NCBI GenBank assembly: GCA_029261575.1
Contig: JAJDBD010000084.1
Location: 1 to 54,657 of the forward strand
Origin: Nitrospinaceae bacterium
GTDB taxonomy: Bacteria > Nitrospinota > Nitrospinia > Nitrospinales > JACRGP01
Length of the DNA stretch: 54,657 nucleotides
Reading direction: 5' to 3'
Numbering within the stretch: position 1 is the stretch's first letter; each line of letters starts with the position of its first letter. The position numbers were made by a program, and so were the translations under genes. Shown one piece after another: positions 46,082-52,125 of this stretch. Below the pieces are notes generated by a model that saw nothing but the letters and a program-made list of their open reading frames with translations, had not been told where the DNA came from and made no database searches.

Positions 46082-47449
46082 TCAACTTTTCTCATACAGG
46101 CGGTTGATTTCCAAAATCCGATCCGTCAGGGTTTCTATGTCGGAGGCGATCACCCGGACCATCTCTTCCTTTCCCATCCCGCCCAGATCGTAAATAATAT
46201 CGGGCACGTATCCGGCTTTGCGGATGGCGTTAGCCGTGCCCCACTCCAAAGTCGACCCTTCTTTTTCTTTAATTTGTCTCGGCTCCGCCGCCCGATCAAA
46301 CGAGCCGACGCTCAATTTCAGTTTTCGGCATATTTTCAATATTTTTTCGTCGCATTTGATATTCATCACCGCGCGCTTTTCCGGATCAAAGTTCATCGTC
46401 GTTAAAACGATGTCCGCCACGTGCCTGGAGGCGCCGAATCGCGGCGCGTCCAAAGTCACGATATCGCGACCACTTTTGATTATTCTGCCGGGAATTCCAA
46501 GAACGTCGTCCCTGTTTTGGGCGTTCTCAAGTCCCACGGCCAAGTTGGATTGCACTTCGGGGACGAGTCCGCCCACCCTGCCCGCTTTCAATTTCTCCAG
46601 GGCCAGCGATACCCTGTGAAACAAATCCCATCGGTCGGCCTCCCGGTACAGTCCGGCGAGCGGATGAACGCTCGGCGCGCCTTTCCCATCCGCCAGACTG
46701 CACTGGATTGCGTCCTGAATAAATTCCTTCGCCCGGCAAACGGCGTCGGACAATTTGTCTCCCCGCGCCAATCCACCGGCAATGGCGGCGGAAAGAACGC
46801 ACCCGGTGCCATGACGGTCCCCGCCGCCAAGCCGCGCCGACTTTAAAATTTCCGCTTTTTTGCCGTCGAAGAAAAAATCGTCCGGATTTCCTTTGGCATG
46901 CCCGCCCTTGATCAATACGCTCTTAACGCCGGTTTTAAGAATTATTTTCGCGGCTTTCAAATAATCCCCTTGCGCTTGGATGCGAATACCGGACAGCATT
47001 TCCGCCTCGTATAGATTGGGAGTAACCAACACGGCAAGCGGAAGCAGGTCTTCCTTAAGCCTCTCCACCCCACCCCGGCTCAACAATCTTTTCCTCGAGG
47101 AAGAAAAAATCACGGGATCGACAACCAGGTTCTTCACTCTGGCTTTTTTCAATATCCGGGCGGCGCTCTGGACCACCGATTCATTGCCCAGCATTCCGGT
47201 CTTTACGGCGCCGGGTTTTCCGTCGGCAAACACAGCGTTCATCTGGCTCTCGACCACCTCTGTGGGCAAATCAAACGAGTCCTGAACGCCCATGGAGTTT
47301 TGCGAAGTGACCGAAGCGATAACGGATTTGCCCATAACTCTTAAGGCGGAAAATGTTTTTAAATCCGCCTGGATTCCCGCGCCGCCGCCGGAATCGGATC
47401 CGGCAATGGTCAATGCAATCGGGAGGGTTGGTTTGTTTTTAGTTTTCAC
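46082..47449 (-). CDS. thiDN: ThiD-ThiN fusion: HMP(-P) kinase / ThiN-type thiamine-phosphate synthase
   Basis: 455 residues. Residues 1-260 are Thi[70 protein letters not shown] with the anion hole. From about 275 the ThiN domain follows: [47 protein letters not shown] and [23 protein letters not shown]. ThiN replaces ThiE in many archaea and in some bacteria, so this single enzyme could phosphorylate HMP-P and join it to the thiazole. Same strand as, and five bases after, a methyltransferase gene. Confidence 0.93.
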
Positions 47450-48112: not shown

Positions 48113-49933
48113 TCATCCTACGGTTACGGATTTTGCCAGAGACCGGGGCTTGTCCACGTCCCGCTTCAGGGACGTCGCGGTAAAATAGGCGAACAACTGG
48201 GCGATCACTAATTGCAGGAGGGGAGCGATCAAGGGGGAAACGGGAGGCAGGATCAACTCTTCGCTGAACAGGTCCTTGTTTTTTCCTCTTTCGTCAAAAT
48301 GAATGCCCAGGACAAATCCCGACCGGGCGCGAATTTCCTCTATGCTGTGGAGGGTGGCCTGATACAGTTCCTTATCTTCCCTGGGCGGGACAAAGACGAT
48401 GGAATAAATATCCTGATCGATCATGGCCAGGGTCCCGTGCTTTAGAAACCCCGCAGGCATTCCCTCGGCGTGAACGTAAGCCACCTCTTTCATTTTCAGG
48501 GCGGATTCCAGAGCCACCGGATAATAAACGCCTCGGCCCAAATACAGCCAATGTTTGACTTTATAATATTGGTGGGCGATGCGATGGATGAAACCGGATC
48601 TTTCGTTTAAAACCGCATGGATGATTTCCGGCAGTTCCTTGAGTTGGTCAATTTGTTTTTGAAACTCCTTTTTGCCGATCAATTTTTTTCGAAGCGCCAG
48701 CTTCAATCCGATCACCGTCAACAAAACTATCTGCGACAAGGCGGCCTTGGTGCTGATGACGCAAATTTCCGGTCCGGACCCCTGAAAAACAACCTTGTCC
48801 ACCAAACGGGAAATGGAAGAACCCATCACGTTAACGATCGCGGCGGTTTTTGCGCCTTTTGATTTGGCGTATTTCAAGGCGGTCAGGGTGTCGTAGGTCT
48901 CGCCGGACTGCGACAGCGCCAGGACCATCGATCCCTTGTCTATCTTGGCCAGAGCGACGAATTCGTCCGCGCTGATCGCCGGAAGAAATTCTTCCGCCAG
49001 GTTGGAAATTATGTACTGGCCGAACTGCGCGACATAATATGTCGTCCCGACGCCCACCAGATACGTTTGATCGCTTTCAACAATTAAATCCACGATATCG
49101 TCGGTCAAACTGGCCGGGATCTCCAGAGCGTGGTTCACCGTTTGCGGCTGTTCGTGGATTTCCTTCAACATGTAATGCGGATATCCGCCTTTTTTCGAGG
49201 ATTCGCTGTCCCATTCTATTTTTTGGATCGGCTTGTCGATTTCCTGGCCGGTGACCAGGCTTTTCACCGTATAACTATCGCGCGAAATAACGGCGTATTC
49301 CCCGTCGTCGATGATAATCGCATTTTTGGTGTGGTCGATGAACGCGTTGAAATCCGAACCCAAATATTTAATTTCGTCGCTGATTCCCAACATCAACGGC
49401 GACTCCCGTTTGGCGCAATATATCTGGTCCGGCTGATGCGAGGTGATGAAAGCCAGGGCAAAAGAGCCTTCCAGCGCTTCCACGGTTTTCGCCAGGGCGG
49501 CTTCCACGTTTTTGCTCTTCTTATAAAAATATTCCAGGAAATGCGGAATCACTTCCGTATCCGTTTCCGATTTAAAATGGAAACCCTCGCGGGCAAGCTT
49601 CTCCCTCAAAAAACGATAATTGGAAATGATGCCGTTGTGCACCACGGCGAACGCCCCGTCGCTGGAGGACAAAGGGTGCGTGTTTTCCCGAGTCACCTTG
49701 CCGTGCGTGGCCCAACGCGTGTGGGCGATTCCGATCCGGCTTTTGTGGCGGAGCACGTTCTCCTTGCGATAAAACTCCTCGACCCCGCCGATATTCTTTT
49801 TAAGAACCAGGCCCTTGCTGTTGACAAGCGCCACTCCGCAGGAGTCGTAACCTCGATACTCCAGGTTCCTGATGCCCTCGTACAGGGCTTGGGAAATGTC
49901 GTTTAAGCCGACGGCGCCGCTGATTCCGCACAT
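48113..49933 (-). CDS. glmS: GlmS, glutamine-fructose-6-phosphate aminotransferase
   Basis: 606 residues. N-terminal class II glutaminase with nucleophile Cys2 (MCGISGAVG), RGYDSCG, HTRWATHGKVTRENTHP and HNGIISNYRFLREKL; two SIS domains with VGVGTTYYVAQFGQY, LALSQSGETYDTLTALKYAK and YLGRGVYYPVALESALKMKE; C-terminal KPRSLAKSVTVG. Makes glucosamine-6-P, the entry to UDP-GlcNAc. Ten bases after the neighbouring NTase-LbH gene, so in one operon with two GlmU-like genes. Confidence 0.97.
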   Translation of the reverse strand: MCGISGAVGLNDISQALYEGIRNLEYRGYDSCGVALVNSKGLVLKKNIGGVEEFYRKENVLRHKSRIGIAHTRWATHGKVTRENTHPLSSSDGAFAVVHNGIISNYRFLREKLAREGFHFKSETDTEVIPHFLEYFYKKSKNVEAALAKTVEALEGSFALAFITSHQPDQIYCAKRESPLMLGISDEIKYLGSDFNAFIDHTKNAIIIDDGEYAVISRDSYTVKSLVTGQEIDKPIQKIEWDSESSKKGGYPHYMLKEIHEQPQTVNHALEIPASLTDDIVDLIVESDQTYLVGVGTTYYVAQFGQYIISNLAEEFLPAISADEFVALAKIDKGSMVLALSQSGETYDTLTALKYAKSKGAKTAAIVNVMGSSISRLVDKVVFQGSGPEICVISTKAALSQIVLLTVIGLKLALRKKLIGKKEFQKQIDQLKELPEIIHAVLNERSGFIHRIAHQYYKVKHWLYLGRGVYYPVALESALKMKEVAYVHAEGMPAGFLKHGTLAMIDQDIYSIVFVPPREDKELYQATLHSIEEIRARSGFVLGIHFDERGKNKDLFSEELILPPVSPLIAPLLQLVIAQLFAYFTATSLKRDVDKPRSLAKSVTVG

Positions 49934-49942
49934 AAGAAAATT

Positions 49943-51154
49943 CTATGAATTATTGCCGGTTATTGAATAACGGGCCGGAATGATTTTCCCGGGAGCGACC
50001 ACCGTCCCCGGCTGAATCGTATTTCCCGCGCCGATCACCACATTATCCCCAATAAACGCTCCAAGCTTGAGCCTGCCGGTATCCAGGGCGCTTTTATTAT
50101 TTTTAACGCGCACCGGCTTCCAGTCCACGTTCCGGTTCACCGTCATCACTCCGGACCCAATGTCCACGCGCTCGCCGAGTACGCTGTCGCCAATAAAAGA
50201 CAGCCTGCCTATATCCGTATGGTCCAGCACCACGCAGTTTTTCATCTCAACTCCGTAACCCACCGAACAATTATTGCCCAAAGAGGTGTAGCTACGGATC
50301 AGGGAGTTGTTGCCGATATAACATCCGCTCCCAATACTGCACGGTCCTTCGAGAACAGCGCCCGCTTTTATCACCACGTCGCTTTCGATTCTCACCGTGC
50401 CGGAAATGGTCACGTTCGATTCCAGAACGGCGGACTTCGAAATGGAGCTTTCCTCCCAGGAATCCATGAGAATACGGTTGGCCGTCAAAATTTCCCAGGG
50501 ATGCACAATGTCCAGCCACTCGTCCTCCCACATCGAGGCCCGCAATCCATCGGTCTCAACGATTTCCTGGATCGCCTTCTCCATGGAAAGTTTGTTCTTT
50601 TCCAGGAGATCGAAAAAAGTGTAGGGCAAAATATAGACGCCCGACAAAACGTAGTTCCCCATTTCGTCGCCCTTGGGTTTCTCTACGATTTTCGTGATGC
50701 TCATTTGCGCGTTTAAAAATACGTTGCCAAACATGGAGTTGGCCGGCGGCAGGCAAATGGACGCCACTCCGCATTTAAAAAAATGGAAGGATTGCTGGAT
50801 TTTACTGAAGATGTTGGAGGCGGCGACGGTGTCCCCGTAAATCAAAAGAAAATATTCGCCGGGAGAAATCTTGCTCTTGACCTGCACGAGGGCGTTGCCG
50901 ATTCCCGAACTTCTTGCCTGCTCGACATACTGCAGGTTGAGTCCGTTGCTCGCGCTTTCGTTGACCCGTTGGATCAGCTTTTCCTTTTGGTGGCCCACCA
51001 CCACAAATACGTCGTTGATTCCGGAGTTTTTAAGCTGGGACAAAATGGAATCGAACAAATATTTTCCGGCCACCCGCATCATCGGAAGCGGACGCGTCAT
51101 GGAAAAAGGAGCCAGGTTGGTTCCTTTCCCGGCGGCAAGAATTACGGCTTTCAT
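49943..51154 (-). CDS. Nucleotidyltransferase-fold/LbH protein (GlmU-like), nucleotidyl site degenerate
   Basis: 403 residues. N-terminal sugar-nucleotidyltransferase fold (about 1-230) then a left-handed beta-helix of hexapeptide repeats (about 235-390: SAVLESNVTISGTVRIESDVVIK, GSGCYIGNNSLIRSYTSLG, IGDSVLGERVDIGSGVM, AFIGDNVVIGAGNTIQPG). The overall design matches archaeal-type bifunctional GlmU/sugar-1-P enzymes. The signature GxGTRLxPxT...PKP is changed: GKGTNLAPFSMTRPLPMM, so the catalytic Arg is Asn and the Lys after Pro is lost. I infer that this domain may not transfer nucleotide and that the LbH part is the working acyltransferase. Confidence 0.85.
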   Translation of the reverse strand: MKAVILAAGKGTNLAPFSMTRPLPMMRVAGKYLFDSILSQLKNSGINDVFVVVGHQKEKLIQRVNESASNGLNLQYVEQARSSGIGNALVQVKSKISPGEYFLLIYGDTVAASNIFSKIQQSFHFFKCGVASICLPPANSMFGNVFLNAQMSITKIVEKPKGDEMGNYVLSGVYILPYTFFDLLEKNKLSMEKAIQEIVETDGLRASMWEDEWLDIVHPWEILTANRILMDSWEESSISKSAVLESNVTISGTVRIESDVVIKAGAVLEGPCSIGSGCYIGNNSLIRSYTSLGNNCSVGYGVEMKNCVVLDHTDIGRLSFIGDSVLGERVDIGSGVMTVNRNVDWKPVRVKNNKSALDTGRLKLGAFIGDNVVIGAGNTIQPGTVVAPGKIIPARYSITGNNS

Positions 51155-51190
51155 CTATTCATTTCCTGGAAAGATTTGCGGAGACACAGA

Positions 51191-51943
51191 TTAGAGCGTA
51201 GAAGCGTTTTTAAGAAAAATCTGTTCGGCGCGTTGCAGGTCGCCTTCGGTATTGACGCCCAATATCTCTTCTGAATCCCTGGTGATGATGGATTGTACCC
51301 TGTTTTGTCTGTCCGCGAGATATCCAATGGTATCGGTGAGGTAATACTCCCTTTGCTCGTTGTCGCAACCGACCTCTCTTAAGGCATTGAAAAGAGATTC
51401 CTTATCAAAACAATAAACGCCGGCGTTGTATTCGTCAACGGTTTTTTCCTCGGGCGAGCAATCCTTGGCCTCGACAATTTTTGATACATTGCCCTCCCCG
51501 TCCTGAAACACCCTGCCGAAGTCCCGGACCTCTGGAGTCTTCAACACCAGAAGCGTGCATTGAGCCTGCGTCTGTTCATGGCGTTCCAACAATTTTCGCA
51601 AAGTCTGTGTTTTTATCAACGGCATGTCGGCGCATAAAATTAGAACGGCCCCGGAAAAATCCCCGAGCGCCTGTTCGGCTTGCATGACAGCGTGACCCGT
51701 TCCCAATTGCTCCGTCTGCTCCGCAAACTCTACCGGCTCCCCGCCAAAACGGGATTTAACCGCCTCGGACTGATAGCCCACCACCACAATGGTCCTTAGG
51801 GGCTTGATAGGATTCACCGCTTTAAGCACATGCGCCAACAACGGCTGTCCGGAAAACGGTTGCAACGCCTTGGCAAGGGAAGATTTCATCCGCGTTCCCT
51901 TGCCGGCGGCTAAAATGATAACTGCGGGAGCTTTGAGGTCCAT
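51191..51943 (-). CDS. GlcNAc-1-phosphate uridylyltransferase, stand-alone GlmU N-domain
   Basis: 250 residues from ATG 51943 (MDLKAPAVIILAAGKGTRM); the upstream in-frame extension is not protein-like. Intact GlmU uridylyl site: LAAGKGTRMKSSLAKALQPF, EQTEQLGTGHAVMQAE, LILCADMPLI and VDEYNAGVYCFDKESLF. The LbH acetyltransferase domain of normal GlmU is absent. It lies 37 bases upstream of the NTase-LbH gene and shares its strand with glmS, so together they probably supply UDP-GlcNAc. Confidence 0.92.
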   Translation of the reverse strand: MDLKAPAVIILAAGKGTRMKSSLAKALQPFSGQPLLAHVLKAVNPIKPLRTIVVVGYQSEAVKSRFGGEPVEFAEQTEQLGTGHAVMQAEQALGDFSGAVLILCADMPLIKTQTLRKLLERHEQTQAQCTLLVLKTPEVRDFGRVFQDGEGNVSKIVEAKDCSPEEKTVDEYNAGVYCFDKESLFNALREVGCDNEQREYYLTDTIGYLADRQNRVQSIITRDSEEILGVNTEGDLQRAEQIFLKNASTL

Positions 51944-52125
51944 GGAAAATCCGGTTCCGAGGTTCACTTGCGCCAGACCGCCGAGTCTCAACTTGATATT
52001 GAAACGTCCGGTCAAGGCAGGCGGACTATAACAAACCAAATATTTCGGGTCAAGAATGCCGGCTCCCGCTCCTGCCGATCTCCGAGAATCAAGTTGATTC
52101 CTCTCCATCCCCTGGCATATTATTA

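Follow-up and report, generated by a model that had tools for sequence, protein, structure and literature searches.

Judged by sequence, GlmU is split into separate proteins in the Nitrospinota and some neighbouring groups, and a 403-residue relative encoded beside glmS, here called pseudo-GlmU, represents a branch of pseudoenzymes within TIGR03992. We give an even chance to the reading in which the split pathway retains pseudo-GlmU as a non-catalytic regulatory subunit of GlmS, and possibly also of GlmU-N, the stand-alone uridylyltransferase. If true, this regulatory reading would describe a new bacterial control of entry into cell-wall sugar synthesis, parallel to the GMPPA/GMPPB pair. The result also matters for annotation: pseudo-GlmU scores high enough to receive the annotation of a bifunctional GlmU-type family, and metabolic models of the Nitrospinota, which are major marine nitrite oxidisers, would then assign both steps to the wrong protein. 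A search of the accessible literature returned nothing usable on a GlmU pseudoenzyme, on a split GlmU in Nitrospina or on active-site work with ST0452.

Organization of the locus

The window, a stretch of 54,657 nucleotides from a Nitrospinaceae bacterium (contig JAJDBD010000084.1), carries on its minus strand a run of genes consisting of glmU-N, a gap of 36 nt, pseudo-GlmU, a gap of 9 nt and glmS. A first-pass annotation of this DNA had placed both GlmU-related reading frames at these positions, with glmS downstream of the 403-residue protein, and we find the same arrangement (9-nt gap, glmS at 48113-49933). A longer start of glmU-N is possible, there being an upstream in-frame ATG at 52108. 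The features that bear on the argument are the following.

51191..51943, minus strand: GlmU-N, predicted GlcNAc-1-P uridylyltransferase, 250 aa; matches TIGR01173 positions 2-239 only, with R18, K25, D105 and N227 intact
49943..51154, minus strand: pseudo-GlmU, 403 aa, nucleotidyltransferase fold plus LbH domain; TIGR03992, key residues exchanged in both active sites
51116..51118, minus strand: Asn13 codon of pseudo-GlmU, at the catalytic Arg position of GlmU/RmlA (alignment with E. coli GlmU and ST0452)
51086..51088, minus strand: Leu23 codon of pseudo-GlmU, at the GlmU Lys25 position (alignment)
50204..50206, minus strand: Arg317 codon of pseudo-GlmU, at the position of GlmU His363 and ST0452 His308
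50195..50197, minus strand: Phe320 codon of pseudo-GlmU, at the position of GlmU Tyr366 and ST0452 Tyr311
48113..49933, minus strand: glmS, 606 aa, sole GlmS over the cut-off in the genome (TIGR01135, 630 bits)
48446-48448: Phe496 codon region of the window's glmS, GFLKHG against GELKHG of E. coli

Elsewhere in the window, 46082-47449 resembles, as judged by eye, ThiD fused to a ThiN-type thiamine-phosphate synthase domain.

A GlmU N-domain without a full-length GlmU

The match of the 250-residue protein to TIGR01173 is limited to positions 2-239 of 452, the N-domain, and its uridylyltransferase site is complete (R18, K25, Q76, T82, D105, E154, N169 and N227 in E. coli numbering). R18, K25, Q76, T82, D105, E154 and N227 are kept in all 72 of the aligned GlmU-N rows. 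The profile match and these conserved residues bear out the initial description of 51191-51943 as a GlmU N-domain with an intact active site and no beta-helix. Against TIGR01173, GlmU-N scores 255 bits and pseudo-GlmU 82, both below the full-length cut-off of 366.85. A search for a complete glmU elsewhere had been proposed as a check on the split; no full-length GlmU over this cut-off was found in the window's genome, a MAG that is 86.8% complete, or in any of 77 Nitrospinota genomes, single-contig ones among them. A eukaryote-type UAP was rejected as the missing uridylyltransferase, PF01704 being absent from the window's genome and from SAR324, and the model for the alternative GlmU (TIGR03991) gave nothing over its cut-off.

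Both active sites of pseudo-GlmU are altered

The 403-residue protein scores 308.6 bits against TIGR03992, whose cut-off is 292.1 and which also matches all 44 of its aligned relatives; TIGR03992 and NF041173 are its closest families and Sulfolobus tokodaii ST0452 its nearest solved relative. An AlphaFold model of pseudo-GlmU (pLDDT 91.6) has its best match, over the full length, in ST0452 (5z0a; TM 0.85), with GlmU and GMPPA/GMPPB ranked after it.

Alignment with E. coli GlmU and ST0452 places Asn13 and Leu23 of pseudo-GlmU at the positions of GlmU R18 and K25, which we take to be catalytic in nucleotidyl transfer. Of the 46 pseudo-GlmU sequences of the phylum that cover this site, none has Arg at the R18 position, which is occupied by N in 22, H in 13, K in 9, G in 1 and D in 1; the K25 position is variable, with Lys retained in 10, and the T82 position is Ile throughout; across the retrieved loci the R18 position drifts among N, H, K, G, D, S, T and A. 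The metal-binding Asp108 and Asp215 and the Lys159 of the EKP motif are conserved. The first-pass annotation was correct in reporting a 403-residue protein that lacks the nucleotidyl Arg and Lys, and the domain that it called dead does look inactive by its residues. An error in the MAG or a local oddity was ruled out as the source of the Arg/Lys loss, the change being phylum-wide, and the loss is not due to chance: throughout the phylum the reading frame is intact, highly conserved and subject to purifying selection. One MAG copy of pseudo-GlmU contains a stop.

The same annotation overlooked that the acetyltransferase site is altered as well: His363 of GlmU is replaced by Arg317, and Tyr366 by Phe320. 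These two residues of GlmU, and their ST0452 counterparts H308 and Y311, are presumably the catalytic residues of acetyl transfer. In the phylum set, which was assembled by whole-protein search and is thus without bias towards Arg, the His363 position is Arg in 47 of 47 sequences and the Tyr366 position Phe in 46 of 47. Arg also occupies the His position in 80 of 80 loci from several phyla, a set that overlaps the phylum set and is biased towards Arg because GRLSF was one of the two search patterns. E349, K351, N386 and K392 are unchanged in pseudo-GlmU and GlmU R333 is conserved as R287; in 44 diverse copies R287, E303, G316, R317, L318, S319 and K363 are invariant. The frozen GRLSF motif around Arg317, taken with the drifting nucleotidyl Arg position, suggests that the acetyl site has been repurposed rather than left to decay and that the nucleotidyl site has been relaxed. 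On the evidence of its residues pseudo-GlmU has probably lost both activities; loss of the His alone is not proof of lost acetyl transfer. The frozen His-to-Arg change provides a directly testable, single-residue prediction.

Distribution, linkage to glmS and selection

Orthologues of pseudo-GlmU are found in most Nitrospinota genomes, the exceptions being mainly incomplete MAGs, and a contig scan located the protein in Nitrospinota, Tectomicrobia, Binatota-like genomes, Schekmanbacteria, Coatesbacteria, SAR324 and others. Within the 80-locus set, glmS lies directly 3' of pseudo-GlmU in 74 of the 76 loci with room for it (L176 and L178 have no adjoining glmS) and glmU-N lies directly 5' in 57 of 78. 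One locus labelled Alphaproteobacteria (L133) has a Nitrospinota-like run of glmU-N, pseudo-GlmU and glmS, and probably belongs to a mis-binned or mislabelled MAG. By its sequence, pseudo-GlmU is conserved as strongly as GlmS: between the window and a congener, dN/dS is 0.026 for pseudo-GlmU, 0.065 for GlmS, 0.14 for the acetyltransferase described below and 0.19 for GlmU-N.

The GlmS linked to pseudo-GlmU reads GFLKHG, with Phe496, where E. coli has GELKHG; Phe is present in 74 of 74, and four other GlmS paralogues carry Glu. In most of the genomes checked, the window's included, the linked protein is the only GlmS, while four genomes have a second. The second paralogues, which come from outgroup genomes (L188:4129-5985, L194:4138-5986, L242 and L243), begin with MSG rather than MCG, their glutaminase Cys being replaced by Ser in all four.

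A stand-alone acetyltransferase candidate

Outside the window, the same genome encodes a 269-residue LbH protein (contig C161, 9619-10425) with orthologues across the phylum, and R333, E349, K351, H363, Y366, N377, N386 and K392 are all kept in 30 of 30 of these. From its residues, this protein is a better candidate for the GlcN-1-P acetyltransferase than the 403-residue protein. The first-pass annotation held that the uridylyl and acetyl steps reside on separate proteins. The split of GlmU agrees with this, but its choice of the 403-residue protein as the acetyltransferase is not supported, since that protein has Arg for His in every copy examined and the C161 protein, present where full GlmU is absent, keeps the complete site.

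The gene for the LbH protein adjoins one for a divergent phosphohexomutase of 713 aa (L092:5599-7740, on contig C161), which falls far below the GlmM cut-off; no GlmM over the cut-off was found in the window's genome. Several outgroup loci (L187, L192, L195, L200, L205 and L208) have the operon order glmU-N, pseudo-GlmU, glmS, mutase and acetyltransferase, and L188 and L194 have the same operon with an extra glmS paralogue between glmU-N and pseudo-GlmU. Two Binatota-like genomes encode a complete GlmU (519 and 494 bits); the stand-alone LbH acetyltransferase was not found in either, and both retain pseudo-GlmU adjoining glmS. With pseudo-GlmU kept beside glmS in these two genomes despite a complete GlmU, a requirement for GlmU chemistry does not account for its being retained.

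Proposed role of pseudo-GlmU and alternative explanations

In the pathway that we propose, the C161 LbH protein would acetylate GlcN-1-P and GlmU-N would convert the resulting GlcNAc-1-P to UDP-GlcNAc. Pseudo-GlmU has kept both domains of the fold and many of the residues that bind ligand, with the chemistry residues of both sites replaced. It would bind a metabolite of the pathway (UDP-GlcNAc, GlcNAc-1-P or acetyl-CoA) in either or both of these former active sites and might adjust GlmS, with which the pathway begins, and possibly also GlmU-N. Such regulation would resemble that of GMPPB by GMPPA or of GlmS by GlmR, systems considered below; the ligand binding and the regulatory target are both inferred. 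The idea in the first-pass annotation of a dead domain kept as scaffold or sensor survives in this proposal, with the changes that it applies to the whole protein and that glmS is the steadier neighbour. Somewhat more tentative is the extension to a multi-phylum family (Nitrospinota, Tectomicrobia, Binatota-like, Schekmanbacteria, Coatesbacteria and SAR324), in which both sites would now be sensor sites controlling the matching type of GlmS, a protein-based feedback without GlmR.

The main counter-evidence to a non-catalytic reading comes from SAR324. Searches of five genomes of this type (L197, L199, L203, L204 and L206) found neither GlmU-N nor a stand-alone acetyltransferase, and no enzyme of the UAP type or alternative GlmU either; their pseudo-GlmU retains Arg13 and Lys23, with a loop that reads NRSxR in most. 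Since no other enzyme was found there and these residues are kept, the SAR324 copy may be active; either pseudo-GlmU works as an enzyme in these genomes or an unrecognised enzyme does. In a tree, the SAR324 sequences are nested within the pseudo-GlmU family rather than basal to it, with moderate support. A 200-aa SAR324 nucleotidyltransferase was rejected as a GlmU: its gene adjoins an XdhC-like gene and by eye it reads as a MocA-type protein. The absence of another acetyltransferase candidate in SAR324 also favours the model of the first-pass annotation, in which only the nucleotidyl domain is dead and the 403-residue protein acetylates GlcN-1-P, either through Arg317 in place of His or by substrate-assisted catalysis. 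The conserved E349, K351, N386, K392 and R287 (GlmU R333) fit such an enzyme, and the frozen sequence at and around Arg317 is what a working site would show. However, the His and the Tyr are both gone, a second LbH protein with a complete site occurs phylum-wide and is absent among the tested outgroups exactly where a complete GlmU exists, and the 403-residue protein is retained in genomes with a complete GlmU; we consider this model improbable, if a little less so than the two that follow.

Pseudo-GlmU could instead be an active enzyme for another sugar or step, such as a different amino-sugar-1-phosphate made from the GlmS product by the 713-aa mutase, and the conservation of Asp108, Asp215 and the EKP Lys159, the clustering with a divergent mutase in the outgroups and the second GlmS of four genomes all accord with this. 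We nevertheless judge it unlikely, as the Arg of the nucleotide loop drifts in a manner unlike that of an active nucleotidyltransferase and, with the linked GlmS being the sole GlmS in most tested genomes, the cluster must serve UDP-GlcNAc. To a pure scaffold that joins GlmU-N, GlmS and the acetyltransferase and senses nothing, we assign the same low probability. Such a protein would account for the retention of the trimer-forming LbH domain, which GlmU-N lacks, and for the joining of pathway members by gene order, but the positions that contact ligand rank with the most highly conserved ones, beyond what a pure scaffold needs, and pseudo-GlmU is kept both in genomes with a complete GlmU and in those whose glmU-N is not linked to it.

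Comparison with known systems

With the archaeal-type members of TIGR03992 (ST0452; PDB 2ggo, 5z09 and 5z0a), pseudo-GlmU shares its two-domain architecture, its fold and a score over the cut-off. It differs from ST0452 in the replacement of the catalytic Arg, Lys, His and Tyr, and in being bacterial, linked to glmS and coexistent with separate candidates for the uridylyltransferase and the acetyltransferase. Bacterial GlmU (TIGR01173) belongs to the same pathway, GlmU-N being a true N-domain of that family and the LbH domains being related, yet in the phylum there is no single full-length protein and the uridylyl and acetyl sites lie on separate proteins.

Two regulatory proteins offer parallels to the proposed role. 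GlmR (YvcK) of Bacillus subtilis is a UDP-GlcNAc-binding activator of GlmS (PMC7525490), and a UDP-GlcNAc-responsive control of GlmS is what pseudo-GlmU might likewise exert. GlmR is, in contrast, an unrelated protein of the CofD-like family (TIGR01826), and pseudo-GlmU has another fold; the GlmR model had no match in the window's genome and GlmR was not found in the phylum. GMPPA is a paralogue of GMPPB that is itself non-catalytic and, with GDP-mannose bound, inhibits GMPPB (PMC11228364). Like GMPPA (PDB 7d72), pseudo-GlmU has lost nucleotidyl catalytic residues, has kept the fold and sits beside an active relative, which makes it a candidate for the sensing of an end product. By sequence it is outside the GMPPA family, with about 18% identity to the 7d72 chains; the nucleotide sugar is a different one, and its steadier neighbour is GlmS rather than a nucleotidyltransferase. 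Control of the kind that we propose for pseudo-GlmU thus has precedents in both GMPPA and GlmR.
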